Shown here: positions 18,401 to 63,104 of the stretch, piece after piece
Layout: each line of letters opens with the position of its first letter
Position numbering within the stretch: the stretch's first letter is position 1
DNA from: Antennarius striatus
Lineage: Eukaryota; Chordata; Actinopteri; Lophiiformes; Antennariidae
Assembly (NCBI RefSeq): GCF_040054535.1
Contig: NC_090785.1
Location: 18,043,001-18,107,000 of the forward strand
DNA length: 64,000 bases
Reading direction: 5' to 3'
The notes under the pieces: model-generated
What the model was told of the DNA's origin: nothing
What the model saw: only the letters and a program-made list of their open reading frames with translations
The model's database searches: none
Translations under genes and position numbers: made by a program

Positions 18401-21400
18401 GAGTTTAAGTATCTTGGGGTCTTGTTCACAAGTGAGGGAAGGATAGAACGCGAGATTGACAGACGGATCGGTGCAGCTTCTGCAGTGATGCAGTCGCTGT
18501 ATAGGTCTGTCGTGGTGAAGAAGGAGCTGAGTCGCAAGACGAAGCTCTTGATTTACCGGTCAATCTACCTTCCTACTCTCACCTATGGTCATTACCTTTG
18601 GGTCATGACTGAAAGGTCAAGATCCTGGATACAAACATTGAAATGAATGGCTGGGCGCACCCTTAGAGATAGGGTGAGGAGCTCAGTCACCAGGGTGGAG
18701 CCCAGTGTCGAGCCGCTGCTCCTCCGCCTCGAGCGTAACCAGCCGAGGTGGCTCAGGCATCTCTTTTGGATGCCTCCTGGTGCCTCCCTGGGAAGGAGAC
18801 CTCGAGGAAGACATGCTGGAGGGACTATCTCTCTCGGCTGGTCTGGGAACACTTCGGGATCCCGGAGGAGCTCGAAGAGGTGTCTGGGAGAGGGAAGTAT
18901 GGGCATCCCTCTTGAGAATGTTGCCCCCGCGACCCGACCCCGGATAAGCGGTTGAAGATGGATGGATGGATGCATGGATGGATGGATGGATGGATGGATG
19001 GATGGATGGATGGATGGATGGATGGATGAATGATTTCTCAAAGCTGATACTGTGTGTTAATATACTGTATATGCGATAAAATGATCAGTGCATGAGTATC
19101 ATTTATTTGGAGTTTTATTTCTGGAGACTTGACAAATGTGAATCCAGTATTTGCCCTTATGTAAGCACTCTCTGGGTTCTCTGGCTAGGAAGCTGGAGAA
19201 CCCCGAGAGTGCCCATGCAACATTTTAAGTTAGCTTATCTGAAACCAGACAGTTTGATTACATTATTTTAATGCCAACTTCACCCAAGAGGTTCTGTTTC
19301 ATCTGTAGCCCCCAGCAGGTGGGAAGTAAAGTTTTAATATGAGTACAAATACTTTGTTTTCAGATTTTTGTACTTTACCTGAGTATAATTTTTTAAAATA
19401 TTATTTGCTTTTACAATACAGTATGATTGAGCTTTACATCTCAAAGGATAAGTGCATTGTTAGAACAGAAGGTGATAAAACATGAATGTGTCCTGCCACT
19501 GCATCAAAATGAGAATTCGGAGTATTTAATTGAAGCAAACCAACATGGTTTCATTGTTAATAATCTTTTCTTTGTGTTTTATTCAATTACATTTAAGATT
19601 TTAAAGATTTGAAAATCAGTGAACTCTTTTTAATGAGTATACATGAAGCTCCGGCTTTTTTGAAGTGAAACATCTATTAGACATGAATTGAAGTAATGAG
19701 TGACAACATATACATCCCTGATTCTCTTTAGGTTAAGTGTAGGCTGCTTTTCATATACCTGTGAAATAGATGTAGGACTCATAGGTGCGTTCGTGGTCCT
19801 TCTCACACTCGTTGCCATCACACACGATCACCCAGCAGCTGTAGGCCCCCGTGTCGGCAGCAGAGGGCGATGTCAGGATCAGTTGACTGTACTTGTCAGT
19901 CTGTTTGATGCTGGAGTTGGGAAACAATACAAACATGACATTGTCACCTTCATATGAGGTCATTGCATAACAAACAGCTGGCATCCGCTGCTACACCTGA
20001 GGCGTGAGTCATTGAAGGTGTCCAGGTAGGGCGGGTACAACCATCCAATGGAGTTGCCTTTACAGCGTAGTTCCATAATGCTCCCAGGAGTCAGAGTCGT
20101 GGTCTGTCCCAGACGCACAAAATGCCCCTTGTCCAAAACCTGGGTTAATAGGGACTGGCTTTTCCCTCCTCCGTCTTTCAGTTTGGGGTGTTTCACCTTC
20201 ACACGTTTCCCACCTGGACGAATGCGATTCTGGCCTTCATCTTTCCTCCTTTTAGCTTGTTGGCAAGAACCTGGATACCGAAGGAGGATGGAGGAGAGAG
20301 AGAGTGGAAGGTAAGAGAGATGGATGGATGAGAAGAAAATCAAAAAATCAGTTTCTGTACAGTTCAATCCTTTAGAGCAGTGGTTCTTAACCTGGGTTCG
20401 ATTGAACCCTAGGGGTTCGGTGAGTCGATCTCAGGGGTTCGGCGGAGACGGGGGTCAAGACAAAACACCCAACATATCGTGTCGGATGTTTTTGCTGAAT
20501 ATACACGAATCACTGTGCACGTTTGACACATCATGTCAATTCGTGATGACACGCCTCTCTTAGCCATCACTGGATGCAGGTGATCACGATACATTGATTA
20601 GCCTACCTGTGCTACATGGGATTTTGCGCACTCAGTAGGGATGGGCGATACCGGGAATTTTGGTATTGATTCGATACAAAGTAAATACAGGGTAGTATCG
20701 GCCGATACCGATACCGATACGATACCGATACTTTTTGCTTGGAAATGGCATGATCATTGAATATTTGACCCTCCCCCCCTTGACTTAGTTTATTATAATT
20801 GTGATAAACACAGCACAAAGATTTTGTAATCCGTTTGAATTGCCAGAACAATCACTGTACGAAAGGTACAGGTTTTGGGGAAAGGGGTTACATTACATCT
20901 GTCAGCTAATGTAACGCACCGCAACCACGCGCTGACAGTCCCGCAGACAGTGTGCATTGCACTGAGGGTTTTTGCAACAGTTAATATACTGTATTTCTCA
21001 GTGATGTTCGTAATTATTATGATGTCCTTAAATCCCTCGTTGGATGGGTTACAAGCAAGCCACAGATAAAATGCCATTAATCAGTTATTTGTTTAAGCAA
21101 GTCATGGATTGATTCATTCATTCATAGGTACTTTTATGTATTCTGTTGGCAATAACAAAAACCTCGGGAAGAACACAGTATGTAGAGCTATTCATAAAGT
21201 CACGGGGGCTACAATCACATGCCATAACGAAAAATGTTGTACATACATACGTTTATGGAACACACAAATGTTACTGTAGTCAGATATACAAGTGCAGTCA
21301 TAGCGGGGAAGTAATATTGTAATGGCACTAACTTCCGCATTGACAGTCGACAATGTTTTGCCAGCGATCCCTGCGCCGTTTGGCAGCTGCAACTGTGTTG

Positions 21401-30600: not shown

Positions 30601-31635
30601 TAAACTGGGAAAAATCACATTTCTAATCTGAAAGTGATGCTAAATGAAATATCTACAAGCAACCCATTGCTTATATTACTATTATATCAATCCCATTTCA
30701 CCCAACGAATATAGTCATTTCCACATTCCCAACAGATCCAGACTACTAAATCCTCAGCTGACTGAAGAATCCGTATTTGCAGAGGGTAGTGCCCAGCTGT
30801 GGTATCACTGAAAACTGGAAGGATCACCACCAAGCCTGGTAAAGGAAACGGTGATCATGTGCCTGCATTTAAATTCAAACTACTCTCACCTTTTAATGAA
30901 TGTCGGCTTTGCCTGTTGAAAGTTGGTGGTATGACAGGAAATGAAAGTTTTGCTCTGACCTGTTGACCCTCTACAGAGATATCAACTTAGATTTTATGAT
31001 TTTCATCATTTACTTGGAGACTTACCGGAAAGCAGGAGAATCAGGAAGACCGCAAAGAAGTCTGGATATTGAGCCAAACCAGGGGAGTTCATGGGAAAGT
31101 AGGTTTTACAAAATGTCTCTATGTGTCCTCCTATTATTTCATCAAACGTGGCACTCCAAGCCCTCGCTACGGATGAAGTACCTGCGACAAACCAATGAAC
31201 GGAGAGCATGAAGAATTAGGAGCTCCTTTACATTACATACGTTTCAAAGATCATCACTAGCTCACCAATCACGTAGGAGAGGATGAGGTTCCAACCAGTG
31301 ATGAAGGCCCAGATCTCCCCAACAGTAACGTAGCTATAAAGATAAGCTGAGCCGGTTTTGGGAACACGGGCACCAAACTCAGCATAGCAAAGGCCGGCCA
31401 TGACGGAAGCAATGGCAGCAATTAGGAATGAGACAACAATACTGGGGCCCGAGTCGCCCTTAGCCACCTCACCGGCCAGGACATAGACCCCGGCACCCAG
31501 TGTGCTGCCCACACCGAGGGCAATGAGGTCAGCGATTCCCAGGCAGCGGCACAACTTCGAGTCCTCCAGGGTACTCAGGTCAACCACTTTCCTGCGCAAT
31601 AAGGAGCGTCCGAAAAATAGGATCCTCTCCAGCAT
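24663..31635 (-). CDS. slc7a2: Cationic amino acid transporter 2 (solute carrier 7A2)
   Basis: Coding exons, minus strand: 31635-31266 (ATG), 31181-31026, 30192-30027, 29895-29759, 29680-29458, one of two alternative exons (28449-28310 or 28068-27932), 26364-26262, 25816-25605, 25526-25360, 25271-25163 and 24829-24663 (TAA). Phases agree throughout. The product is 649 or 648 residues depending on the alternative exon, against about 658 in human. It is a multi-pass plasma-membrane carrier of arginine, lysine and ornithine. Seen in sequence: [19 protein letters not shown] in the first membrane segment, [20 protein letters not shown] with the conserved Glu near residue 86, [17 protein letters not shown], and a serine-rich loop (exon 25816-25605) between membrane segments that is more divergent. 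The C terminus EKTSRF resembles the human EKTSEF. CAT2 supplies arginine for nitric oxide and polyamine synthesis in other vertebrates. Confidence 0.96.
26365..27931 (-). other. slc7a2 intron without recognised features
   Basis: The 1.6-kb intron after the alternative exons holds only short frames (26920-26732, 27317-27087) with no family match and no splice context. Confidence 0.6.
27932..28068 (-). CDS. slc7a2: slc7a2 alternative exon, CAT-2A type
   Basis: A 137-nt exon encoding [20 protein letters not shown] followed by [13 protein letters not shown]. It has Arg where the other exon has Glu and is one codon shorter at the Asn position, as in the low-affinity CAT-2A form. Using both exons, or neither, breaks the reading frame, so the phases enforce mutual exclusion. 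Confidence 0.93.
28310..28449 (-). CDS. slc7a2: slc7a2 alternative exon, CAT-2B type
   Basis: A 140-nt exon encoding [20 protein letters not shown] followed by [14 protein letters not shown]. It has the Glu of YAMAEDG and an Asn in RINPK, as in the high-affinity CAT-2B form of mammals. It enters in phase 2 and leaves in phase 1, exactly as the CAT-2A exon downstream. It is the upstream member of the pair in transcription order. Confidence 0.93.
28450..29457 (-). other. slc7a2 intron upstream of the alternative exons
   Basis: A 1-kb AT-rich intron in which I see no repeat or extra exon. Elements choosing between the two alternative exons may lie here or in 28069-28309, but none can be named. 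Confidence 0.5.
30193..31025 (-). other. slc7a2 intron without recognised features
   Basis: An 833-bp intron between phase-1 exons. No repeat or coding signal is seen. Confidence 0.6.
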
Positions 31636-38739: not shown

Positions 38740-40191
38740 TTACTATTACGACAACGCTGAGGAGGCTCCGTCCCTACAAGGCGGCTGGACCAGATAAGGT
38801 CTCCCCAAGACTCCTCCGAGCCTGTGCTTCGGAACTAGGGGACCCCCTGCAACAATTGTTCAACCTCAGTCTGCGGCTGGGGAGGGTCCCGTCACTGTGG
38901 AAGACCTCCTGCATTGTCCCTGTACCCAAGAAAGGACGCCCTACTGAGCTCAACGACCACCGACCGGTCGCTCTTACCTCCCACGTAATGAAGACCCTAG
39001 AGCGACTGGTCCTGGAGCTCATGCGTCCACAGGTGCAGGGTGCAATGGACCCTCTCCAGTTCGCCTATCAGGCCAAGGTTGGGGTTGACGACGCTGTGTT
39101 GTACCTCCTCCACCGCATACTCTCCTACCTGGACGCCGGGGGCTGTGCCGTCAGAGTGCTCTTCTTCGACTTTTCGAGTGCCTTCAACACCATCCAGCCC
39201 CGGCTCCTACAGGACAAACTGACCTCCATGGCTGTGGACCCCTACCTCGTGAGCTGGATCACGGACTACCTAACGGACAGACCCCAGTACGTCCGTATGG
39301 GGGACTGTTTGTCTTCTATGGTGACCAGCAGCACGGGGGCGCCACAGGGGACCGTTCTATCCCCCATTCTCTTCACCCTCTACACATCAGACTTCAAGCA
39401 CAACTCTGATACATGCCACATACAGAAGTACTCTGATGACACCGCGATAGTGGCATGTATCCGGGAGGGTGATGAGGGGGGGTACAGGGCATTGGTGGCT
39501 GACTTCGTGGAGTGGTGCCAACAGAACCAGCTCCAGCTCAACGTCTCCAAGACAAAGGAGATGGTTCTGGATTTCCGGCGGGCACCTCCCTCTCCACAGC
39601 CGGTGATCATCAAAGGCAGTGAGGTAGAGGTGGTAGGAAACTATAAGTACCTGGGACTGGAGCTAGACAGCAGACTGGACTGGTCACTCAACTCGGACTG
39701 TGTGTACAAGAAGGGGCAGAGCAGGATGTACTTCCTGAGGAGGCTGGCCTCCTTCAACATCTGTCCTAAGCTCCTTCTCATGTTCTATCAGTCCGTAGTC
39801 TCCAGTGTGCTGTCATACGCCATTGTGTGTTGGGGTGGGGGGGCCAGGAAAAGAGATATGGACCGTCTGAACAGACTCATCCGCAGAGCGGGTTCAGTGG
39901 TCGGGCTGAGCCTGGACTCTGTGGAGACAGTTCTGGGGAGCAGGACCATGTCTAAAATTAAGGCAATCATGAACAACACCAGGCACCCCCTACACACCAC
40001 CTTCTCCCAGCAGAGAAGCACCTTCAGCGGCAGACTGCTGTCACACAGCGCCTCCACAGAGAGGCTGAGGTCCTCCTTCGTGCCCCTTGCCATCAGGGGG
40101 TACAATGACTCTCTCAGGAGGAACGGGGGGGGGGGGTGGCGAGGTCAGCACGGGGTTGAAAATGGATTTAATTTAATTTTAATTTTATACT

Positions 40192-40241
<50 letters not shown>

Positions 40242-43439: not shown

Positions 43440-43870
43440 TGGCTCTTTCTGACTGAACAGCAGCCACAGCCGGCCGGCGGCGGGTTTTAGGACCCGGCGG
43501 TGCCGCGGCTCTCCTCCTGACAGCCCCGACACCACAATGGCCGTCTTTACCTGCGTGTCGCTGGCGAACGCGTCCGTCTAGGCTGAGAGCCGGTGTTCTG
43601 TGGACCGCAGTCCCGTCATGTACCGGCAGGAGTGACGTCACAGGCAACAGCGGTCCGTCCGTCGGCTGAAGATGGAGCACATCCGCCTCCCGAAGGTAAA
43701 GCGGCTCTGATTCAGGGATTAGTCTCCCGCCCATCACGTCACCATGTCTGCGCGCGCGGCGGCGGCGGCGGAGCTTTAATTCACATGAAATCAAACAAAC
43801 AGTTGATGAAAGGGCGCGTGCGGCGTTGGCACGTGGGACAAGCCACGCGCGTTCGGTTTTCCGTCCGTGG
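43440..43870 (+). promoter_or_regulatory. mtmr7: CpG-island promoter of mtmr7 with CRE
   Basis: Base composition changes sharply to GC-rich with many CpG (for example CCGGCCGGCGGCGGG and GCGCGCGGCGGCGG). A full palindromic cyclic-AMP response element, TGACGTCA, sits at 43633-43640, 32 bases before the ATG. No TATA box is seen. The long minus-strand frame over this island is a product of its GC content. Confidence 0.7.
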
Positions 43871-45876
43871 AGAGGTAATGAGGCTGTTTCACGCTGCGAT
43901 TCCTCTTCCTCTTCCTCGTCCAGGTGGAGAACGTCCGGCTGCTAGACAGAGTCACCCCCAGGAGGAGTAGGGTGGGGACCCTCTATCTCACAGCCACGCA
44001 CACCATCTTTGTGGAAAACGAGACTGGAGTGCGCAATGAAACATGGGTAGGCGTCTGGCTGTCAAATGACTGGATGTTTCTGGTGCTGATGCTCCAGGGC
44101 CTCCATCCCACTGCAAGGCGCAGGGTTCCATGCCAGTGGCCACCACGCTCCATGCTGTTCCACTTTTCGCGTTTGCTTTATTAAAGCAGAATAAATTATC
44201 TATGTTTGCTTTTCATTTATCTTGTCAGGTGCTTCACAGTTTGGTGTGTAGCGTGGAGAAACCTTCAGCCTCAGCATCAGGGTGTCCCATAATAATTCAC
44301 TGCAAGAACTTCCAGGTTCTTCATTTCGTCCTACCTCGAGAGCGGGACTGCCACAACGTCTACCTGTCCCTGCAGCGTCTGTCCCAGCCAGGTAACGTAC
44401 CGCCATGTTTGCATGTGGATAACCTTCACATTTCATCATCTGAGTATGTCTGTCCAGTATTTTCTGTCCTATTCTGTTGGATCTTTGCAAAAGGGTATAA
44501 AATATATAACTGAAACCACATGGTGCCTTGCAGAGAGCTACGATGAGCTGTATTGTTTCTCCTATAAACCCAATGTTGATGAAGAGGAGAGAAGACAGGA
44601 GTGGGACTTCCTGGACGTAAGGGGAGATTTCAGGAGAATGGGTCTCCCGAACTCCCTGTGGAAACTGTCCACTGCCAACCAACACTACAAAGTCAGTTAG
44701 CGCCGACATCTGAGGCCATCTGAACTGATAGACCCTAAGACGGGTCTGTTATGGCTTAGATTTGTTTCTTGACTTTTGTGACAGGTGAGTGACACGTATC
44801 CTGCCGACCTGTTCGTCCCTGAGTCAGCCACGCCCCCGGTCATCGTAGGGAGCTCTAAGTTCAGAAGCAGAGGCAGATTTCCTACTCTGTCCTACTACTC
44901 CAAAGAGAACCACGTATGTTGAGTGCTTTTTCTCTCTCAAACTGGGTGATTAATAGACTGTGTAGAAACTCTCATTCAAGTGGTTATTTGCCAGAACATT
45001 AAAACAAACATACAATCACCAAAGGATGAAAAGCATAAAGGTATTTCACCACTGGAGATCCGCCTCACGTAGACATTTCCTGTTTGAGCTGTGGTTCAAC
45101 ACAAACACGTGTAGCTGATGCAGTAGACCTCACTGCTATGAATCTGTTGCCTATGAATGGAGTCAGACCTGGAGAGGAGTCCCAACATGTCAGCTTGATG
45201 CTGATGGATCTGTTGTGATTCCAAGCTATTGGTAGGGTCTGGGGTGTTCCAGGTTGAGATTTGGGACACATGTATTACCCAGATTGCAGCTCGGAGCAAG
45301 TCCTCGGCTTAAAGTCTTCTGAGAATGATGTTTCTCTTGTTTCGCTCAAGCATGGCCTGACTTGTCTTTGGAATGGATGGTGTCAAACAGTTATTAGTCA
45401 GCAAACAAGCCCTCACATTTATAGGCATGTTCCCATGTTGGTCCTACATAATCAAACATTCCCAGATGATGAGCTGTTCTTGCTGTTGCTTTGGTTACAG
45501 TAAAGTCAAACGATCTTACTTTTGTTTTTATTTAGCAGCAACATGATTTTGAGGTCATTTCTATTTTCTCAAAAATAAGTTCCTTTTTTTATTGATAGAT
45601 TGACTCTGAGAATTAGTCAAATGAATGAAGCTGACATGGCCCTAAAGAGGCTGCAGGTTCTGTGTAGTTTGGTGGCAGTGGACTCTGCTTTTGTTTTTTA
45701 TTGGAAGTTGTCATAATTTAATGTCTTTTCTGTCTTCATGTCAAAACATGATTTGTTACCATTTTTCCAGTTCTGAATAAGGAAAGGTCTGAGAAATCAT
45801 AATACATTATAATAATCTTTGACAGGGCAGTTGTGAGTGCTTTATGTGTCTGAGGTCAGCTTCCCAGGATTGAAGG

Positions 45877-45921
<45 letters not shown>

Positions 45922-48900
45922 TGTGTGTGTGTCTCACATTGTACAAAGCGTCTCTACTCTGGTCTTTGAGCCTGAAGGGAGAATAACATAATGGGGTCTG
46001 CCATCGTCCCTTGTGGCTACTAAATGCACAAATGATAAATTCCGTGGTTGGTTTCGCCTTGATTCCCCTGATGTATCCCAACGAGATTTGGCTGCCTGCA
46101 TGTCCGTCCATCTGTTTTTGTCCAGAACATATCTTACAAACGCTTCATCCTGAGTGAAGCTTCTTTAGACTTCACACTTAAAACAACTTGAATGGGAAGT
46201 TGTGCTTTTTGACATTTTGAAATTGCTTTTGTGTTTCCATGGAAACATAATTTTTATGGTGGGCCTCAATGCTGATCGTCTTGTCCAGAGAATGCATTGT
46301 AAACTAGTGGTGCCCAACCTTTTTTGCACCACGAACCAGCTTAACCTAGGACAATAATTCCAAGGAACGGCCTTTAAGGTGTGGTGGATAAAAAATTTTT
46401 TTTCTAAATATAATAGTAAACATGAATCCAACATTTATGTGGTTTTATTAGTAGCGTCCTCCTAACATTGACACATTCGTTTTTTGTTTGTTTTGCTAGC
46501 GAGGGAGTTTTAATGTATTCTCTTTCCGGCCGGAGTAGCCTCTTTAAGAAGGTAGTCATGTGACCGAGTTAAGCATCTAAACAAGCGTTACGAATGAGTT
46601 GTAGACAGATGTGAAGGTGAAAACCCGGTATTTTTACAAAACAAAATTGTTTGAGTCAGATAATAAATAAAACAGAAATAATGTATGTCATTTATTCTTT
46701 CTCTTTCATTCTGACAATCGATCAACAGACTGGTACCGTTTCGGGGCCCTGGAGGTTGGGGACCACAGTTGTGAACTATATTATAGCTTCATCAAACTTT
46801 GCACATAAATTAAACGTAAGACGTTTGGTCTTCATACATGTTTTGGGGTTTTCCATGTTGGGAGGATAAAGTGACTCTTGGGTTGGACATCTGTGCTTAC
46901 CAAAAGAAAAGGATTCACCACAAACTGATGCATTTGTTGCATTTTTTGGAGGAAGCTCTCAGGGGAACATATCATCTCCACATTACTCTTGTTTGATTTA
47001 TTCTTCACCTAAAATGTCAAGTCAAGCAAACATTCCCTTTTGAAGCTGCTCTTGCCTCCTCCCAGGCTGCCATCTGCCGTAGCAGCCAGCCTCTGTCAGG
47101 TTTCAGTGCTCGCTGCCTGGAGGACGAACAGATGCTGGAGGCCATTTTGAGGTCCAATCCCAGCAGCGACTTCATGTATGTGGTGGACACCAGACCAAAG
47201 GTGAGCCCCTCGTGCACACAGTTCCGCCAAAGCCAGTGACAATACAGTTCTTACATCGCTATTCTGTATGTTCAGCTGCATGGACTCACATGGAATGTCT
47301 TGAAAACATCCTGGCTTTGTGTTGACCACGATGAGTGTTGTGTCAGACATGTGAAACCATACTTTCTCAATTTTTTTTTCTGTCTAGCTAAATGCGATTG
47401 CTAACCGAGCTGCAGGGAAAGGCTATGAAAATGAAGACAACTACTCCAATATTAAATTCCAGTTTGTTGGCATTGAGAACATCCATGTTATGAGAAACAG
47501 CCAGCAAAAAATGCTTGAAGGTAATTGCCATGTCTTCCTGGCCTGATTCTTTCACTGATTTTATATTTATCTACTACACAAACAACATTGTGTCACAGTG
47601 CCACGAATGTTCTCCATACCAGTGTTTGTGGAATAAATTGCTCTTTTTTTAGCGTCTTCATGTTACTACAGCAGAACGGGACCCCACGTTACCCCTGTGG
47701 CTTTTATATGCACTCATGCAGACCACACTGTGCTGCACTCAGGCCTCAAGCAAACCCACAGGAGAGTTTCTTGGTATTGTGCAGGGGTGCTCTGAGGAAG
47801 ACTTTGAATCCATCTGGATTTTATTTCTGAGCTATTTCGGTTTCCCAGAGTGAACAGTCCAGGGCCATTTCCTCTAAAGAGAGACTGAGGGCGTGAGAAT
47901 GATATGATTGCAAGTCTGAAAAGTTATAGCTGTTCTTAGTTATGATAACTCTTTGCCCTCTGGCAGCACAATCAAAGTCTATAAATTGTACGGTGCCTGC
48001 CCCGTCAGAGCGCAGCACAACGCAAACACACACTTGAGTAAGTTTTGAAACACCTTTGCAGATTGAATTAGTACAAATAGTTCCTCTTGACCGGAATCCA
48101 CCTGTTAACAAAGATTGTGAAAAAAAAACCTGTCCAGCGTGGCTTCGGAGTGCTGCTCCTGGTCAGCACCCTGCAGCCGCGTTAGATAAACACACTTCTG
48201 TCAACTATTTAACAAGCGGCGAGTCAGCTGATGCTTTGGTGCAGCATCTGAAGTATAAATGTTATTGTGATAAACTGTTCCAAGTAAATGTCAGCTGTTG
48301 AGAAACAGATTAGTGTCACTCTGGACCCCCATTGAACCTTCAAATATTTATGTAGAACCCTGATGAGGGCTAAAAATAACAAGATCAACAGCCCTAAATC
48401 AGTTTTTCTGCTTAAAGAATGGGCTTACTTGACTGGTTTGTTTTTCAAATATAACATTACAAAATAAACTGTTAAGTTATCTATGCAACTATAGTTGACA
48501 CATGGTGGCACGTTTTGGGTATTTGGTTATGTGAGTGCTCATGATTTGATGTTAAACAAATATTATATTCCCCATATTCACCATCCTAGGCTGGTTAAAT
48601 TGGTTGGGTTTTCTGATTCACAATAAATACTGCTAAGGCCTGCAGGAATGATAGTAACTTTATGGGTATTTGTTCATAAATGTAAAGTCAACAAAATTTA
48701 CCTGAAGATGGCTCCAGGTAAAAAGTACATTGAAATTAATCATGAGTGTAGCATATCAATGTAAGATATCACATTTAATCAACATGTATGGAATTTTACA
48801 GTCAGCAATTCTAATTAATTAAAATATAAACATTTTTTTCTCGTGAAAATTGGAATAACTGGTGTAGAACCAGTAAACCTGTTCAATTGATCACTGTTCA

Positions 48901-51900
48901 AACCCAGTTTGTAATTAACACATCACTCACCTCAAAAAACTAGAATAATTTAAAAGGTAATTTAATTCTTACCATAATTTACTTCAACGGTGAATCTTTA
49001 AGATACTTTAATTTATTGCACATGAATTTTAGTATTTTAAGGCTTTTTTATTCAAATTTCGATAATAATGGCTTACATTATTATCAACAAAACTGTAGAT
49101 ATTAAAAACTAATTTTTCATTTGTAAGAAATCATTGACGTGTTTGATTGTGATTTTAACTGCAGATAATGAAATTACATTTCTGATATCGAGAGCACCCA
49201 TCCGTCAATGCATTTGAAACCAGTATAAATTATATTTGTGCTAGAAACCGGTTTATTTCGTTATAATGAATAATAATAAATGAGCTTTTCCATTGAGGAC
49301 CTTATATCAAATGTAAGTAAATTAGTATAGCATGTCAGAAAACATTTCAAGTAGTAGTGACTGTCACTGGTGACATTATTAGCTATGAAAAAAAGAGGTT
49401 GCGCATCAACTATGTGTTTTTACTATAGAGTGCTAGACCAAATAATTAACTATCAAAAATAGGGATAAACTCCCAAAAGCTAGCACATCTAAAAAACACA
49501 AGAGACATAAAAAAAACGCTGTGTGCGGGGGGCAGGGTGAAAGAGAGAATTTTGAATGTGTTGCTTTTGACCAGATTCCCTGTTACTTGATGCACTTTTT
49601 TTAAAATCGCCTTTTCAATAATGGAACATTTCCAGTGGATCTTAAGAATAATATTCACCTACCTATCATCTTTAGCGTCTTCCTCTCTGAGATGTGATTC
49701 ATATTAACTGTTCCCAAGAAACGCACTTACAATGAGTTTTACACTGATTTCAGACTAATCAAGATAGCGGGCCAAAAAGAATATGCAAATTCGGGATACT
49801 GGAATCTGCTCTGCTTTCCCATTCTTGTGCTCATCCAACATTAACATTTCAGCACATGGAAATGTCAATTCAAGTGGACCTCAAGCTGGCGCCAAACTTT
49901 GGAATCTTCATGATTCTTCCTCTGGGAATCATTAAACTGTACAGGATTTTTATTGGAGATGCTCACGAGTGCAAACTTTGGCCTGATAGTTGTATATTCG
50001 ATGTTAGGAGATCACCAAAGTTATTTGATTTGATTCATCATGTTCTTAAGTTCTTGCAAACCATTTAAATTGTTCTGAAGCTATGTCAACATGGGACAGA
50101 CAGACTTTACCATCCCTAGATCCATGCAATTTATAAAGATGTGGATAAAGACATTTACTTTTTCCAAATGAACCGTCACACGAGGCAGAAAAAACAAACA
50201 GCATGCTAGTGTGACCTATATTTTCCCCATAAACCCATATTGATGGATGTTTGTAGTGAAACGTGAGTGAGTTTTAATAAAATCCACTGTTCAGGGATGC
50301 TCCACTCTTCCTGCCAGTGACACAGCTGTGTTGTGATTTCAGTGTGTGAGCTGCGTTCCCCCTCCATGTCTGACTTCCTGGAAGGTCTGGAGAGCTCAGG
50401 CTGGCTGAAGCACATCAAAGCTATTTTGGATGCAGGCATCTTCATTGCTAAGGTCAGTCTGGAGGTTAATCCCTGCTGTCTGCCTCACTACAGCACTCAA
50501 TATTAACTTAGGTGTGTGTGTTGCATCATGTGTAATACAGATATTGTCTGTCCCTACATTCACTGCACAGGAATTAAGCACACCGTGTACTTTGACAGTA
50601 AGTTAAATTTGAATGAAATTCTTTGCACAAACTTGACCAATGAGCTTGAAATTCTGATTCTGACATTTGTCCTGCAGTATGCCACAGGCCAAAGATTCTA
50701 AATTGTCTTAAAATGGCATAAATGCTTCACTGTAGCTGGTGAAGAAAGTCAGGTTAATCAAAGTCAGGTCTTTACTGCCATTGTTACTTCTGACAATTGT
50801 TTAATGATGCTGTCACCTTTTCCAAAGCTGTTTAAGTCAATCCACTGGACTTTAAGAAGGTTTCTTGAAAAAATTTCACCTCTCATCCAAGAGGCTTCCA
50901 CAGTTCTGAATGTGGCTGGTCTTGTCCCAGTTTATTAATCCTTATGGGTGTGGTCAGTGCTATTAACTCAGTGTGGTGTGGTCAGTGCTGTCACCTTGCT
51001 ATTAAGCAGAATATTTGAATAACATTCTATCCTTTGGCTGAACATTTCTGTCTTTCTGATAATGTTCATTCTAAAATATGTGTGCTATAACTACATCTGT
51101 GCAAACAATTTGACTGCGCCTAAGAATCACTTGATGTGTGAAGGATGCAATTTGTGCAGACTTTGTAACAAGATGCATGCTTTCATAGTTCAGCGGTCCC
51201 AGGCTTTGGGTTTCCTGTTTACACTAATATGCTTTTCACCAGTTTTTCCACTTTCGTTTTGAGTTGAAGTAGCTAATTCATTTCTGCATTGCTTTCAAAC
51301 AGCATTTTCATTCTAAATATGAATTTATTTGTGCTAAATATTCATTGATTTCCTAAAATTATGGACAAAATCTTCATCTGGGAAATTCAATCTTAGAATT
51401 CTTCTCTTTGTAGATGATTTGAAAATGCCCATCTCTTTTTTTCAGTGATAGCCTTCTTGCTGTCAGTATTAATGCTACATCTGTCTCTAAGAATGATGGC
51501 ACTGAAATATAGAGGTTGTCATATTTGCTCACATTGACCTGAATGCCTAGATTGATGTAATTGTGGATTGGTGCTGAGAGAGAACCAGGAGGCAGTCACT
51601 ACTGGATCTAAACTCGATTTTGATACAGAGTTAATGGATAGACAGTGCTGCTATTGGAATTTCTGTTACATTCATTTGTATGAACATTTGTATTTTTTGA
51701 TGGTTGGCGTTAAGCTAAATCACAAGAGGATGAGAAGGTGATGACATCATGGTGGACAGGTCAAGACATTTGCGTGGGGGAACTTCAAGAAATTGAACAA
51801 AACGGAATCAGAATGGAATGCATGCAAATAAATCATAACATATCAAGATGAAGCACCATGAAACACAAAGTGTCCAATAACCCGAGGTCTCTAGTATAAA

Positions 51901-54900
51901 CGGGAGTGTTTCTGCATCATACGCAGTAAGCACACACTAAATAAATCTGAGATCTGCAAGGCTTCACATTTGGTTCTCATTTACTAATAATCAAACCAGT
52001 GTCTTGAACATTGTGCTTCTTGGCTTCACTCGCCCTCAAGCTTGACAAGTCAAAACATACGTTTGCAATTTAGGGAACAGTAATTATTGGAATCAAATAA
52101 TGCACTAGGCTTTATGAGATTGCTGCCTAACAGCAAAGAGGTTGTCCAAACATGACAAAGCAATAACTGTCACATTTTTATTGAAGTGACTTTATTAAAT
52201 TATCAAACTTGTCAAGTTTAAAAAATCATAAATAAGATATGAGAAATGATGTGAGTACAATACAATGTAAACACAAGAATAGTAAAACATCTATTTTCTC
52301 AAACTCAAGCAGCAACAACTTCAGGTTCTAGAAAATAGACTGTGATATACTCTTAAACTGTTTCCCATGTTGTCATGGATGTTTTGAGTTGGACTTTGTA
52401 CAAAAATTATTTTATTGATTTCATTGAACATTAATGAATGAATGATAAGCAGGCTTCAGAGGTACGGTATGCCCAAGGAAGGATCCACTAGACTTTGCCA
52501 GTGATCTGGAACATCAAGTGGATCATATTCTAGCTCTGGTGATCCAGAATGTGTGAATTTATGTCTCACAGGAAATTGAGCAATATTAGAGAGTGATAAT
52601 AACACTAAATAATATTGGAAGTATTGGATAGATGTCAGCTTGCCCTGCTGTGCCAAGGTTGATTAACATTAAACTCCATAATTAGCATGAGCTTTAAATT
52701 AGCTAGCTTGGCACCAGCTTGAGATAGTCATAATTATGTGCTAAACTTTGAAATTGTAAGATAGAAAGTCATAAAGTACAAGATCAAACTCTCAGTGATA
52801 AAGTATGACCATTTCATTATATTGTGTAGTTGCGGTTAACTTTATATCATAATTTAGACTTTGTTGTAGAAAACTATAGGAATAATTTTGACCCACATCT
52901 TCCAAGAACCATGAATTATCACCAGGTAGGCCTAAATTATGACTTGGTAACTTGTAATTTTGTGAGAGTATGTATCACATAAAAAGTAAAAACTATGAGG
53001 TAAATGTATGTAATATTAAAGAGGTTTTTTTTTAATCTGATAGTTGCTCCTTCTTGTCCCGTTAGGATTTACTAACTCTTAGTTTCAACCATTTGTCCAG
53101 TAACTATGATCTAGCATGGGGTTAATCAATATTTGCTCTATTCGCTATTAATAAATCATTGCCAATTAAGTTAATTTGTGGGTTTGTGTCTTAATTTTGT
53201 TGTCAGTTTTTAGCATAATGATGAGGTGGTGCAGCACGTAAGTGGCCAACGCCCTATGCCAACATGACGGTTTTCTTCCCTGTTTTGTCAGGATACCTAA
53301 CATATGGACCTGGGCTTTTTTCGTGAATCTAATGAGAGTGAGATTGAAGTAACCCCTATGGTTTTTAAAATATATTTTCATGTGTCAGCTGGGATTTTAA
53401 CAATACATAAATGTCACAGCACGTCTACGTTCCTTGTGTGGCCCCGTAAGGATCAAATTCAAATTAGTTTACTTTGTTTCAAAAACAGCTACGGAAATTG
53501 TACCTCCATAATATGCTTTGCTTTGAATTTTTTACTGAACATTTAAGCCCAAGAACAAAGATATTCACAGAGTAAACATGATGATACTGTGATATTGACA
53601 CAGTTAAATGTACTCCACAATTAACAACAAATGACACACAACACAAAACTGGCTACCTGGAAAATCAGTCACCTGGTGACGTGGTCCAGCTGTGGACCAC
53701 ATCACCAGACTGTGGGCCTTTATAGAGGTTGCCTCACAATACCTGTCTTTACTGAAGGAAAACAGCAGCTACACCCCTGGAACGGTGGCACTACAGCAGC
53801 ACCAGCAGGCTAGCGATCCATTGAATGTGTCACTTGAATTGTGAGGAATAAGTGCACAATCTTGCAATAGCTACCTCTCTCTGCCAGACTACAACTCCAG
53901 GAGAACATCCCTAGTCTGGACTTTAGAAAGTGTGCCTTTCTGCATACCAGAGCAGTAATATCTTCTGCTGGTCCAAAATCTGATCTGATCTTTTTCAGGA
54001 TTGTGATGTCATTGGTGATGTTTTGTAATAACATAACACAGTAGCATCCCATGTCAGGTGTCTGTGCTGTGGCTGCAGTGTCTCTGGGGGGTTGGCATGG
54101 TGCTGTTTCCCCAGCAGCACTGATAGTTCTCCAGTGCTAATGAAGTCAACCACATGGAGATAGGCTTAGTGGAAGAAAACAGGATCATACTGGATCCCCT
54201 GAATGAAAAAACCCTGTATTGTCCACACCATGAAGTCACGGCAACACAGCTTGGGAATATGCATTTGGTGCCACACTTGGTCCATGAAGTTGTGGTGTGT
54301 CTGTGGTGCCATTGTTTCATCCTTTCCCACACTGAGACAGGATGATGGATCTTTGCAGCTTTCAATGACAGAGCAGTCCCTGGCATTGAAGAAGCATTTT
54401 CTTCCCAATGTGCCATCGCCATGGTAATGTTACCATGGTGTCAGGTGATGCTCTGGTCCAAAGGAGCTATGAGTCAGTGATGAACCCTAATGCCTGGAAA
54501 TATATTTAGTATACAGCACTAGTAAACTGTGTAGATTGAACATTTTTTCATTACTATTTTGTTGACAGACCTGGAAGTTGCTATGGTGATCTTGCATCAT
54601 GGATTTGCAGCATTCTTTCTTTTTCCTCATTCAGTTGACCTCATCTGAAAAAAAAAATTAAAAAGCATATAGCGTATAATGTATTTGAATGTGACCAGAT
54701 CTGAATAACGTCGCCTGCCTTCCATAATAAAGTTAAAATGTGTTACATGCTCTCTACAAGGTTGACTTATACTATATGTCTTATACTATACTATATGATA
54801 TGTTTTCTTTAATACCAAGAGCTAAATTGTGTTTTCGAGTGAATGCAGCCAGGCAGTTAATGTCATATAGATAATGTAATCAGCCTGCACAGCATGCATG

Positions 54901-56761
54901 GCTGTCTGGTAAGAACTGTAAAACCTACTTTATCTCCTTTAAAGAATAACTACACTTGATTAAAAAGTCCAGTATGCAGTAGCCAGCCCTAATCGACATT
55001 AAAATAAAATAAAAATTCATATACATTTGGAATAATTAATGATTCTGTAATTTTGTCGATGTAGTGTAGCTCTCCCAATCCTGCCTTCCAGCTGCAATGA
55101 GCCATAATGTCAGTCATCTCTTCTTGTAGTGTGGTCCAGGGGCGTGTTGGGGTTCACCTGCAACTTGTATCACAAATAATAGTAGCTAACCAGATAAAAT
55201 GGTGTGACTTACGATTGAGATCCACATTACAGTGTTTATAGCAGTATATTTACAGTATTTTATTTTCAATCTTCTTAGTGTGACAGAGTGTACCTTCATT
55301 TTGACCCCATGTTTTATTTAATTAGACTACAGGTGTTCACACTGTAAGCGTTACTCAGAGTAAATGCTGTCTTTCCAGGCAAACTGTAATGAACTCGATA
55401 TCATTCTTAGTGCAAATTGTCTCACAATGAGACAAGTTAGCATTAACATTACTTTAGAGATTGTTAACCAGTCAAAAATATTATTGTTGGGATTGTTGTA
55501 AAAGTAAAATACTTTTGAGTGATACTGATAAATTAATAAATTGTGTCTTACCTTTCTTCTGATGAAGTTTTTTTTTTTTTTTAATCCTACGGGTGATGTA
55601 CTTCAGGACAGGGGTTTTAGTCCACAGAGGTAGAACAGATTGTTGTGCTTTTCATTGCTTTGTGTAAGGTAGGCTAAAAATGTATGTACAGTAACAGAGA
55701 ATTGTAGTGACAGCAGTCTGACACAAAGTATTACGTATTTCACAATTTCAGCATACTTGTGTTTGTAGGCAGATCACAAAGATCACAGACCATTGGGTGG
55801 AAATGAACTGATGTCATACTAAACAATGCAATACAATAATAAACACTTATTAAGTTTATTGACCCTGTGCTTGGCTCAATCCTATTTTATGTTATTTATA
55901 TTTAAAATATTTTTTCAAGTCTTACAATCCTCTGTTCCTTTTAAAGTTCTTTTATTTTATTGAATAAAGTATTTATTTTATTTTAGGCCTATTCAAGTTT
56001 TATATCTACTCTCTTTTAGTTTGAAGGACTCAAGTATTCATCAAACATACTGCAGTAATACATCTTTAGCATTATTAAAGGTAAACAATCAGGTTGGTAT
56101 GCGATCATCAATTGAAAAAAATACCAGATCATGTATGTCTAACAGATAAATAAGTAAATAAATGAACGATTAGATAAATAAATAACCAGTCCTTATGTTA
56201 AATCTTCTCTATCTAAAGTCCCACTGTGTGTTCCAGGTAGATTGAAAGGGGTTTGTAGTCCTACTGAGATCTAAGTGCTTGTGTCTTGTACGAAATATAC
56301 TGTTCTTTCCATCTTAGACACCAACATTCACAAGTTCCTCTGGATATTTGGGCTGAGACTGACCATATCTGTCACAGTTGACCTCAAAAGTCACTGAACT
56401 TTCAAAGATAATCACCACACTAATATTTTTCAAATTATAGTATTTGGATTTTGCAGCGTAGGAGTCGTATTTTGAGGGCCAAACGGTCACTTTTAGTAGA
56501 AATGAGACAATGGAAAATCTAAGCTGCCGTAAACGTTTGTGCCGTTGAGTCTTGTTTATACAAAACCACGGTGTCAAACCTTGGTGCAGGTATTTTTTTC
56601 ATGAATTGCTGTCTGTGTGATTACCTTATATCATTACTAACTAGATTCGATAGATTTTGATGTTTTTGCTGTGGGGAAGATCAATATTTAACAAGTAAAT
56701 AACTTCCGGTTCTCTATTCTGTTTGCTGATATTTATAATGTCATGAGATTAGGCTCAGACG

Positions 56762-56838
<77 letters not shown>

Positions 56839-58906
56839 AGTGCAGGCTGTTGCACATGAGGGTGTCAGTGTACTGGTTCACTGTTCAGACGGTTGGGACC
56901 GCACTGCCCAGGTGTGTTCTGTGGCCTGCGTGCTTCTGGATCCTTACTACAGGACCCTCAGGGGACTCATGGTAAGTGCATCTCTTATGTAGCACTATGT
57001 CACATGTACTACTGGTGCAATCTGTGTTATAACCATATATTCAGTTACTTTCTGATATTAGTCCCTACAGGCTACAGGGGCCTCTTGTCTTTGGGTAGAA
57101 AGATTTGTTGTAGCTAACTAAGGATATCCAGATGGCGACAGGGGAAAACTAATATAAGGAGGCTTCCTTTTGGAGTTGTCCCCCTCCTGAAACAAAAAGA
57201 GATTAAAGCAAAATTGACCCCACACAGACGGTGAACAGGTTCATACATCGCTGTAGGATTTTCGGCATTATGTCTGGACTTCCATCAGGAGCATGTAAAG
57301 AGGTCCAGGTCTTTAAGCACTTGAATGACGTTTTTCTGCTCTTAGGTTCTCATTGAGAAAGACTGGATCTCATTTGGACACAAGTTCTCTCACAGGTATG
57401 ACTCCACAATCTTTCTTTCATAGTTTGTATGATTTAGAGTTTTAGATCCAACCATCATGACATTTTTTTTATCAGATGCAACCACCAGGTCGGAGACCCT
57501 AAAGAAGTTTCTCCCATCATCGATCAGTTGCTGGAATGCATGTGGCAACTCACGGAGCAGTTCCCCTGTGCCTTTGAGTTCAACGAGAGGTTTCTCATCA
57601 CCATTCACAGCCACATCTATTCCTGTCAGTACGGCAACTTTGTTGGAAACAACCAGCGGGAGAGGATAGAGCTGGGGTGAGATTTACATGTGTGGCCGCC
57701 ATCAGTTTCTTTTCCTTTTCACTGCACAGACATCTGGTCTGAACCAGTGCTCCGAGAGAAGAATTAGTGCAGCCAGTACGACTTATATCATCAGGCTGGT
57801 AGAAATAGTGAAACCTCTGTGCTAGAAACACTTCATCTTGTCTGTGCTTGTCTTTACATGCTTCCTCCCACTTGAAATTAACACAGACTGCGTGAAAGGA
57901 CTCACTCTCTGTGGAGTTATCTGTGGGCTAATAAGGCAGACTACATCAACCCCCTGTACCGCCCTGACCACAGCAAGACACAGCGGCTTCTCCCAGCATC
58001 TACCGCCCCCTACTGCTTCAAGTAGGTTCTCACACACACACCACTTTAGGGTACAGTCCAGGTTTACATACATGTGTGTTTCCATCCATGAATTAATTCT
58101 CTTAAAGACGAAACAAATACTGACTGCTCTTCAGCCACTTATCTGAATCCAGGCTGTGAGACAACAGCGCTAGCCACCGCATCAACGTGCTGCCCTACAT
58201 ATGTATTTTGTGTAACATAAATGTAAAGAAAAGAAAGGAAAAGGTCAGATTTATGCATTTCAGAAGTAAACCTATATCAATAGAAAAGGAAACCCAACAG
58301 AGTAAGTTCTTAAGCAGGTTGTTAAAAATGTATTGCGCTGTTGAAATCTCTCGCCCCAAATAGGTTTTGGAGAGGGTTATACAACCGCTTTGACAAGGGC
58401 ATGCATCCCCGGCAGTCCATACAGGATTATCTGAGCGCCATCCAAGAGGAGACACAGCAACTGCAGAAGCAACTTGCATCACACAAACAGGTTAGACAGA
58501 AATGTCACATGAAAAAGAAACATACTGCAATGAGTGTAAAGATAATCGTTGTCTTGTGTTACCACAGAAAATTACTCAACTGGAGCAGGAGCTGGGGTGT
58601 AGGAGTGTTACCCAAAGAGAAGCCATGGATAAGAGCCCCACAGCGTGGGCTTATGGGAGTGACCTCGGCGTGGCCAACACCCCTCAGGATTACACAGGGG
58701 GCCTCCTCACCAGCAGCCCCTGTAAGCCCAAAGCGACCGATAGCGGCCTGGTCCTTCCTCATAAAGACCCCAACCCATCTTCGGAAACCAGCCTCTCTAA
58801 TGGCAGCGACCAGGAGTCTGGCATTGACCTGAGCTGCCGTTCCCCCCTCAGCGAGGACAGCACCAGGGATCCAGATTCGGATGAGGCTGCCTACTCAGCT
58901 GCCTGA
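43672..58906 (+). CDS. mtmr7: Myotubularin-related protein 7, phosphoinositide 3-phosphatase
   Basis: Fourteen coding exons: 43672-43695, 43924-44046, 44229-44391, 44534-44691, 44785-44913, 47066-47200, 47388-47520, 50343-50452, 56846-56971, 57346-57395, 57476-57676, 57887-58021, 58364-58490 and 58568-58906 (TGA). All phases join, giving 650 residues against 660 in human. The protein starts [18 protein letters not shown], a PH-GRAM domain over about residues 1-100, followed by the myotubularin phosphatase domain. The catalytic loop [12 protein letters not shown] puts the nucleophile Cys at residue 338 and the Arg at 344, so the enzyme should be active. A coiled coil at about 520-550 ([18 protein letters not shown]) fits the known pairing with MTMR9. 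The acidic serine-rich tail ends SDEAAYSAA. Known role: removal of the 3-phosphate from PI3P, and from inositol 1,3-bisphosphate in mouse. MTMR6 and MTMR8 are close paralogs, but synteny favours MTMR7. Confidence 0.96.
45878..45932 (+). repeat. TG microsatellite
   Basis: TG units interrupted once by TTT. Confidence 0.95.
46305..46768. mobile_element. hAT-type MITE
   Basis: The left end TAGTGGTGCCCAACCTTTTT and the inverted right end CTGTGGTCCCCAACCTCC are hAT-like. The flanking 8-mers TTGTAAAC (46297-46304) and TTGTGAAC (46769-46776) differ at one base and fit the hAT target pattern. The element is 464 bp and has no transposase frame. Confidence 0.75.
47521..50342 (+). other. mtmr7 intron without recognised features
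   Basis: A 2.8-kb AT-rich intron. No repeat family or extra exon was identified. Confidence 0.55.
50453..56845 (+). other. Large mtmr7 intron ending in a TG tract
   Basis: A 6.4-kb intron. A teleost repeat fragment lies at about 50845-50937 (TTCACCTCTCATCCAAGAGG). A richer segment at about 53630-54430 holds overlapping minus-strand frames (54422-54054, 54408-54166) that I cannot assign and that may be a decayed element. The last 82 bases are the GT tract and the splice acceptor. Confidence 0.55.
56764..56837 (+). repeat. mtmr7: Pure GT tract abutting the mtmr7 exon 9 splice acceptor
   Basis: Thirty-seven uninterrupted GT units end 8 bases before the exon starting at 56846. The acceptor reads TGTGTCAGTGCAG/GCTGTT with no polypyrimidine run, so UG repeats fill the place of the usual pyrimidine tract. 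A second AG five bases upstream (56839-56840) would shift the frame. Confidence 0.95.
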
Positions 58907-61850: not shown

Positions 61851-63104
61851 ATGGCTGGGAAGAAGTGGCTGATAGGATTCATGCAGAGGCACCCAAGACT
61901 GTCTCTCCGATGGCCCCAGCCTTCAAGTATTTTAGAGGCAATGAGTTTCCACAGACATAATGTGGGAATTTTCTTCTCCAACCTACATAATGTTCTGACC
62001 ACATATCATCTAGAGGGACATCAAATCTGGCACACGGATGAAACGGAAATAACAGTCCAAAAAACGCAAAGAGTCACTGATGGCGAGGACATTCAACGGG
62101 TCAAAGAAATAAAATCCAAAGAGAGAAAAACACCAGTAACTATGGCCATAGCTGTCAGTGCTGCTGGGAACATGATCCCTCCACACTTTGTTTTCCCCAG
62201 TAAGCAGTTAGTTCCCCACATGAGTAGCAAAGGCCCACCTGGTGTCATCAGTACCACCAATGGACCTGGCTTGATGCAGGAGGAAGATTTCCTAGTCTTC
62301 CTGCAACATTTTGTCTGTCATACAGGTGCCTCCCACCACCGCAGGGTTCTATTGCTACTGGATAACCACTCTTCCCATGTAACAGCTCAGGGCATTGACT
62401 ACTGCAGGGAGAACGGGGTCATACTTTTGTCTTCCTACCCACAGTGTTCAAATAAGATCCAGCCTCTGAACCGGAAAGTGTTTGGGCGCCTAAAAAAATA
62501 CACCGATCAGCAGATTGATGCATGGATCCAGGAACATCCTGGTGAAACTCTGAGCGTGTATAATGTCCCCAGTTTGGTGGCAGATGTATTACCAAGAGCT
62601 GCATCATGCTCTAACATCACTGCTGGGTTTAAACGCTCTGGTATTTTTCCATTTAATTCCACTGTGTTCACCAACACTGGTGCAACTTCCAGTGTATTTA
62701 CCCGACAAGACGATAGCATCGGCCTTTACACAGTCTCTGCCCAGGCTGCTTCCTCCATTTCCAGTCCAGATGCAGCACCTGGCAGTGGAGCCCTCTCCAC
62801 TTCAACCCAATCTGCTGGACCCACCGTCTCTACAAGCGTGTCACCAACCAGTTGCCTTCTTCTCCCCTCTACCAAGGCCAGTGGTTCTGTCTTCCGTCTA
62901 TGTGTGGAGTCTGTCAGCAGACTTTTGCAGTACACTCCTGCTGTCTCCCTCTTCTGTCCATGTCTGTCACCTATCATTGGTCCCATCCACTCCACCGGCC
63001 AGGCTGCTGGCTCCATCTTGTTTCTTGGGATGGTGTCCAGCGTCCGCTTTATACGTCAGCTGAGGTACACCTCTCCAGTTGTGCAACCTGTTTACATCCA
63101 GTAG
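61851..63104 (+). pseudogene. Pogo/Tigger-type DDE transposase, decayed
   Basis: A 417-codon frame. It opens with the end of the helix-turn-helix region (MAGKKWLIGFMQRHPRLSLR) and then a DDE_1-like domain: IWHTDETEI (first Asp), LLLDNHSSH (second Asp), and SNKIQPLNRKVFGRLKK, where the third acidic residue, normally Asp in QPLD, is Asn (AAC at 62469-62471). KRSGIFPFN near residue 265 matches the family. The N-terminal DNA-binding part upstream is broken by stops (in-frame sequence reaches only to about 61818). The last 130 residues of the frame look out of register. No terminal repeats were found. Catalysis is not expected. Jerky or TIGD-type domesticated genes are the alternative, but the breaks argue against it. 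Confidence 0.8.

Follow-up and report, generated by a model that had tools for sequence, protein, structure and literature searches.

UG repeats at 3' splice sites have previously been linked to exon skipping, most closely for the present purpose in the human CFTR gene. According to the excerpts of the literature from which all papers are cited here, skipping of CFTR exon 9 needs both TDP-43 bound to UG repeats and hnRNP A1 bound to an exonic silencer (PMC12171016), and TDP-43 represses when it sits near splice sites but can enhance from farther off (PMC13343711). TDP-43 binds GU repeats as a lattice with a footprint of 5.5-5.9 dinucleotides (PMC12697283). The same repeats can adopt a pUG fold, for which the threshold is (GU)11.5 (PMC12962679); double folds are described at 24 or more repeats, and occupancy by TDP-43 and folding are mutually exclusive (PMC12962679, PMC12276007, PMC12697283). 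In vitro, the half-life of pUG folding is in the range of minutes (PMC12276007). Fish introns contain thousands of such GU tracts together with CA repeats, which make U2AF2 dispensable (PMC12962679, also PMC9198270). This class goes back to Lin et al. 2016, reported via PMC9198270 and PMC12962679, with fish introns that carry AC and GT repeats at opposite ends and are spliced without U2AF2.

The locus investigated here is the myotubularin gene mtmr7a of the frogfish Antennarius striatus. The analysed window is a 64,000-nt stretch of contig C10 of the 548-Mb genome, and the mtmr7a coding region occupies positions 43672..58906 of its plus strand, with 14 exons encoding 650 aa according to the exon model. 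The translation was identical to the NCBI entry 'myotubularin-related protein 7a [Antennarius striatus]' (P0001; 100% identity over 100% of the length). Pfam domains PF21098 (PH-GRAM_MTMR6-like) and PF06602 (Myotub-related) were both found above cut-off, and the MTMR6 structure 2yf0 matched the protein with an E-value of 1e-223. With PH-GRAM and phosphatase domains and a CSDGWDRT loop, the protein is predicted from its sequence to be an active myotubularin of the MTMR6-8 subfamily.

Several other open frames were noted in the window. A frame on the minus strand at 31228-31635 carries an amino acid permease domain (PF13520) and looks like a cationic amino acid transporter; as SLC7A2 adjoins human MTMR7, this synteny may be old. 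About 3 kb downstream of mtmr7a, a 417-aa open frame (61851-63104) with a DDE_1 endonuclease domain reads as a pogo-like transposase. Two further frames with reverse transcriptase domains (PF00078), at 17474-18646 (390 aa) and 38856-40235 (459 aa), are probably LINE fragments.

The catalytic loop is encoded by exon 9 (56846..56971, plus strand), for which the 14-exon model gave a length of 126 nt, phase 0 to 0, and residues 326-367 including Cys338 and Arg344, just as the initial annotation had described it. On the same strand, exon 9 is separated from exon 8 (50343..50452) by intron 8 (50453..56845; 6,393 nt) and is followed by exon 10 (57346..57395), so that exons 8 and 10 would be the 5' and 3' partners of a skip junction. 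When exon 8 was spliced to exon 10 in silico, the frame stayed open for 608 aa with zero internal stops, and the claim that exon 9 can be lost without a frameshift therefore held. The donor of exon 9 (ATG/GTAAGT) agrees with the consensus at 8 of 9 positions and is joint best among the 13 donors of the gene.

The acceptor of intron 8 differs from the others in the gene. A (GT)37 tract at 56764..56837 (plus strand) was identified both by reading the sequence and with Tandem Repeats Finder, in which it was 100% pure and had the top score (148) of the 20 rows in the window. Only 8 nt separate it from exon 9, and they end in the CAG (56843..56845, plus strand) that is used by the NCBI frogfish protein P0001. 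Within the last 40 nt before the exon, the longest pyrimidine run was 2, compared with 4-18 at the other 12 acceptors, and the 20-base pyrimidine fraction of 0.50 was the lowest of the 13, tied with that of exon 4. The proposal that a 37-unit GT run 8 bases before exon 9 takes the place of the pyrimidine tract was thus exact in both its parts. Eight stretches around myotubularin exons of the frogfish genome were compared as a paralog check. Six contained the catalytic motif, and two of these six share the start of exon 9: a copy on contig C8 that resembles MTMR8 and one on C20 that resembles MTMR6, both named from a reading of their exons. Both have ordinary pyrimidine tracts, so that mtmr7a was the only gene of its subfamily in the frogfish genome in which the GT tract was seen. 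Intron 5 of mtmr7a contains another GT tract (20 units, then 6; 45879-45932), distant from both splice sites. In the titles and abstract openings of the papers listed by the literature searches, no description of the mtmr7a exon 9 acceptor was found.

In anatomy, the closest counterpart of the frogfish tract, whose function is putative, is the (TG)m(T)n tract in intron 8 of CFTR. In both genes, UG repeats lie directly or a few nucleotides ahead of the 3' splice site, the pyrimidine tract is poor, and the exon is in frame. The frogfish tract differs in its length (37 units versus about 11-12 in CFTR) and in having no T tract; moreover, its exon lacks a matching hnRNP A1 silencer at the start, and skipping of the frogfish exon is a prediction. 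A scan of exon 9 for hnRNP A1 silencers revealed no TAGR and one weak candidate near the exon end, CAGGGGAC (56959..56966, plus strand), with weak likeness to the CFTR element (CAGGGAU / GGGGAAU). The parallel with CFTR exon 9 drawn in the initial annotation is accordingly sound for the UG repeat and the poor pyrimidine tract, but only in part for the mechanism, as CFTR skipping also needs the hnRNP A1 element. From the published footprint, up to 6 TDP-43 molecules could fit on the 37 units. Compared with known pUG-fold RNAs, the 37 repeats exceed the 11.5 GU needed and leave room for three folds, although here the fold is predicted only.

The reading that we consider best, with a probability of about 0.45, is that of a used acceptor consisting of GT repeats only, with possible minor skipping of the catalytic exon. 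The (GT)37 tract would act as a weak and tunable tract at the acceptor used in the frogfish protein record. Exon definition from the strong donor, together with the alternating uridines, may let U2AF use the site, and most transcripts would probably include the catalytic exon. The minor skipped fraction is predicted to be set by a repressor that binds UG, for example TDP-43: TDP-43 or, to the exclusion of it, a pUG quadruplex could block the site part of the time, and longer alleles would be skipped more. The basis for this reading is the anatomy of the acceptor, the lack of any other pyrimidine tract, the strong donor, and the presence of the exon in the frogfish record. As this record includes exon 9, the repeat would likely only tune the frequency of skipping. 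Against the reading, two paralogs and many vertebrates have the skip annotated with no GT tract known for them, another exon of the gene (exon 6) is missing at least as often, the hnRNP A1 candidate is weak and lies near the far end of the exon, and some tens of tract-bearing acceptors are expected per genome by chance.

To learn more about the skipping of exon 9, we surveyed protein records for it. The skip counts are numbers of database models, and they represent lower bounds that are shaped by the matches listed; introns were read for the frogfish only. Frogfish MTMR7a is represented by one protein, which forms a cluster of its own, contains exon 9, and carries no isoform label, and no frogfish form without exon 9 was seen among the 120 proteins listed in a search centred on the exon 8/10 junction. 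The catalytic loop was present in 117 of the best 120 mtmr7a matches, the exceptions being P0054, which lacks exactly exon 9, P0103, which lacks exons 9 and 12, and P0076, which is scrambled in this region. All 12 matches from the 'lgn' source among these 120 keep the loop; as their contigs, at 2.3-3.7 kb, could not accommodate the gene, they are presumably transcripts.

In the junction search, an exact skip of exon 9 was found in at least 30 proteins, among the 120 matches listed of 676. Its carriers were MTMR7 of birds, mammals, a shark, catfishes, and the two percomorphs already mentioned (P0054 and P0103), and MTMR6 of mammals, birds, and an arowana. P0054 is mtmr7a isoform X2 of Micropterus dolomieu, and one further exact skip, in mtmr7a isoform X2 of Chanodichthys erythropterus (P0204), was found via an exon 5/7 search. 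Altogether, 31 of the 206 fetched proteins had the exact skip, in a set that was biased towards skips by the searches. From shark to mammals, MTMR6 and MTMR7 have annotated isoforms in which exactly the catalytic exon is missing (e.g. P0054, P0122, P0147, P0149, P0204). They lack the identical exon as would be lost in the frogfish, but come from other species and paralogs, with none found for the frogfish itself. That it is possible to omit the exon is shown, at the level of annotated models, by the exact skips in mtmr7a of Micropterus and Chanodichthys.

Exon 6 served as a control. It was absent in at least 42 proteins, among the 120 matches listed of 1,047 in the exon 5/7 junction search, and these included two human MTMR6 isoforms named by NCBI. 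Judged from these sequence records, annotated skipping of the catalytic exon extends across vertebrates without being more frequent than that of another symmetric exon, and the idea of skipping as a special trait of exon 9 was dropped. The skipping suggested by the initial annotation is annotated in relatives in exactly the predicted form, whereas its attribution to the GT tract is weakened, since the same skip is annotated for MTMR6 and MTMR7 of birds, mammals, and a shark and exon 6 is missing at least as often.

These counts also bear on the main rival, a neutral microsatellite that happened to grow at this acceptor. The exon would then be included constitutively at every repeat length, and any skipping would be part of the background of symmetric exons; we regard this as possible but somewhat doubtful. 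In its favour are the 42 annotated exon 6 skips compared with 30 for exon 9, each among 120 matches listed, and the presence of exon 9 in the sole frogfish protein found. To estimate how often such an arrangement arises by chance, we sampled 200 kb of its sequence at 20 places spread over ten contigs of the frogfish assembly. Ten GT or AC tracts of at least 34 units were found, corresponding to ~26 per Mb per strand, and tracts of this length are thus common in the frogfish genome. The chance of such a tract ending 0-8 nt before a given acceptor is ~2e-4, or 0.3% over the 13 acceptors of mtmr7a. With a round figure of 200,000 acceptors taken for the genome, some tens of such acceptors are expected genome-wide by chance. 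The purity of the tract exceeds chance and its position does so only weakly; as such coincidences are expected across the genome, the position alone is no proof of function. In a check for transposon origin, intron 8 and exon 9 had zero matches at E <=1e-5 in this sample, which is a small one, and in the rest of the window. The neutral explanation is countered by the repression that pure UG tracts beside a 3' splice site are known to exert by binding TDP-43, as far as the cited excerpts go, and by stickleback, in which this acceptor likely has a GT tract too, a hint at persistence.

The initial annotation is extended by three aspects, namely AGs that may compete, the place where the branch-point candidates lie, and the comparison with the fish AC/GT intron class; the AGs, the restriction of branch-point-like sites to the region upstream of the tract, and the likely stickleback tract are new leads. 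Sites resembling yUnAy were sought over the 350 nt before exon 9 and are consensus predictions only. All candidates were upstream of the GT tract, the nearest at 111 and 117 nt from exon 9. The latter is a CTGAT at 56726..56730 (A at 56729), and a TACTAAC at 56635..56641 (A at 56640) is 206 nt from the exon, both on the plus strand. The 117-nt candidate is followed by AGs at 56746, 56751, and 56757. Use of the candidate acceptor AG at 56757..56758 (plus strand), before the tract, would add 29 in-frame codons (TACVCV...SVQ) through the tract. The intervening 87 nt (56759-56845) are open in the frame of exon 9 and, if retained, would insert these codons, mostly Cys-Val. A candidate CAG at 56838..56840 (plus strand), 5 nt before the used CAG, would shift the frame, with a stop after 449 aa. 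The region might thus mainly govern the choice among AGs, with the AG at 56757 leading to the Cys-Val insertion and that at 56839 to a frameshift and message decay. We consider this explanation unlikely. Both AGs are present, the 29-codon extension is open, and the 29 nt from CTGAT to the end of the 56757 AG are a distance usual for a branch point; however, the NCBI frogfish protein takes the AG at 56844-56845, the frame of the extension varies with the repeat number, and the sole read-through model, a stickleback protein (P0081) that also lacks exon 8, looks like a prediction error.

This Gasterosteus mtmr7a model contains VCVCVCVCV just before the catalytic exon, which would be the reading of a GT tract of ~13 units, 9 nt before the exon. 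Such a run was seen in 1 of the 206 fetched proteins, and P0081 lacks the start of exon 10 in addition to exon 8. The run suggests that a GT tract is likely present at the same acceptor in stickleback, which belongs to another percomorph order, as deduced from the protein. A bolder and very unlikely proposal is that a long GT tract in percomorph mtmr7a, orphaned from any AC partner and likely found in stickleback too, would be a lasting splice signal of the catalytic exon, in which a switch between TDP-43 and a pUG quadruplex would set active or phosphatase-null MTMR7, inherited as repeat length.

We give slightly less credence still to an aid to inclusion by pUG compaction, in which two or three quadruplexes would bring the AG closer to an upstream branch point, with TDP-43 acting against this. 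The 37 repeats exceed the (GU)11.5 threshold and the 24 repeats of double folds, and the excerpted studies describe TDP-43 and the fold as mutually exclusive. Moreover, the branch-point-like sites in the 350 nt searched were only upstream of the tract, at least 111 nt from the exon, and in fission yeast RNA structure can span a long gap between branch point and AG (PMC9508853, from an excerpt). Against it, the fold forms with a half-life of minutes in vitro, and the ordinary folding of 56715-56880 was matched by 184 of 200 shuffles (z +1.35), calculated with a program that does not include pUG folds. Ordinary secondary structure joining the branch point and the AG, which was no better than the shuffles, was rejected.

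The least probable explanation, that intron 8 belongs to the fish AC/GT class, was rejected. In this class, an AC repeat near the 5' splice site would bridge the intron by pairing with the GT tract and so take over the role of U2AF2. Intron 8 of this fish gene does end in a GT repeat where a pyrimidine tract would be expected, the hallmark of the class (PMC12962679, PMC9198270), but no (AC) run of at least 5 units was found anywhere in the intron, its 5' end included. When the first 250 nt of intron 8 were paired with the tract, the energy (-40.4 kcal/mol) was reached by 24 of 200 shuffles and exceeded by 5 of 11 other introns tested. The intron thus lacks the defining feature of the class.

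If the GT-only acceptor is skipped at times, the product would differ from that first proposed, which was a catalytically dead but otherwise intact MTMR7. A strand and a helix around the P-loop form the heart of a PTP domain. In the predicted model of the full-length protein, exon 9 carries a strand (333-337) and a helix (342-356), and the block means for the stretch 321-370 were 63-77, indicating moderate confidence. In a model of the Micropterus skipped isoform, block means for the flanking core (311-380) were down to 31-48; in the PH-GRAM domain and in the coiled coil, the two models were similar. Both models were poor, with a mean pLDDT of 51.2 for the full-length protein (30-sequence alignment) and 43.1 for the skipped isoform (23 sequences), and other parts of the phosphatase domain were below 50 in both; together with the unequal alignment depth, this makes for weak structural support. 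Since, by this low-confidence model, a core strand, the P-loop, and the helix after it would be lost with the exon, an otherwise intact protein is unlikely. According to these models, the skipped product would lose its phosphatase core, and its folded parts would probably be limited to the PH-GRAM domain and the coiled coil. The pairing with other myotubularins that the initial annotation suggested could survive the skip through the coiled coil. MTMR6, MTMR7, and MTMR8 pair with MTMR9 through the coiled coil, and an MTMR7 coiled-coil peptide acts on PPAR-gamma, as described in PMC7286916.

GT acceptors in fish are known where an AC partner replaces U2AF2, and intron 8, which has no such partner, therefore asks whether a GU tract suffices as an acceptor signal by itself. 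The frogfish acceptor also poses the question of competition between TDP-43 and the pUG fold. The read-out is simple, as a single symmetric exon comprises the entire active site. If inclusion of this exon is length-dependent, a lipid phosphatase would have a natural dial in this repeat.
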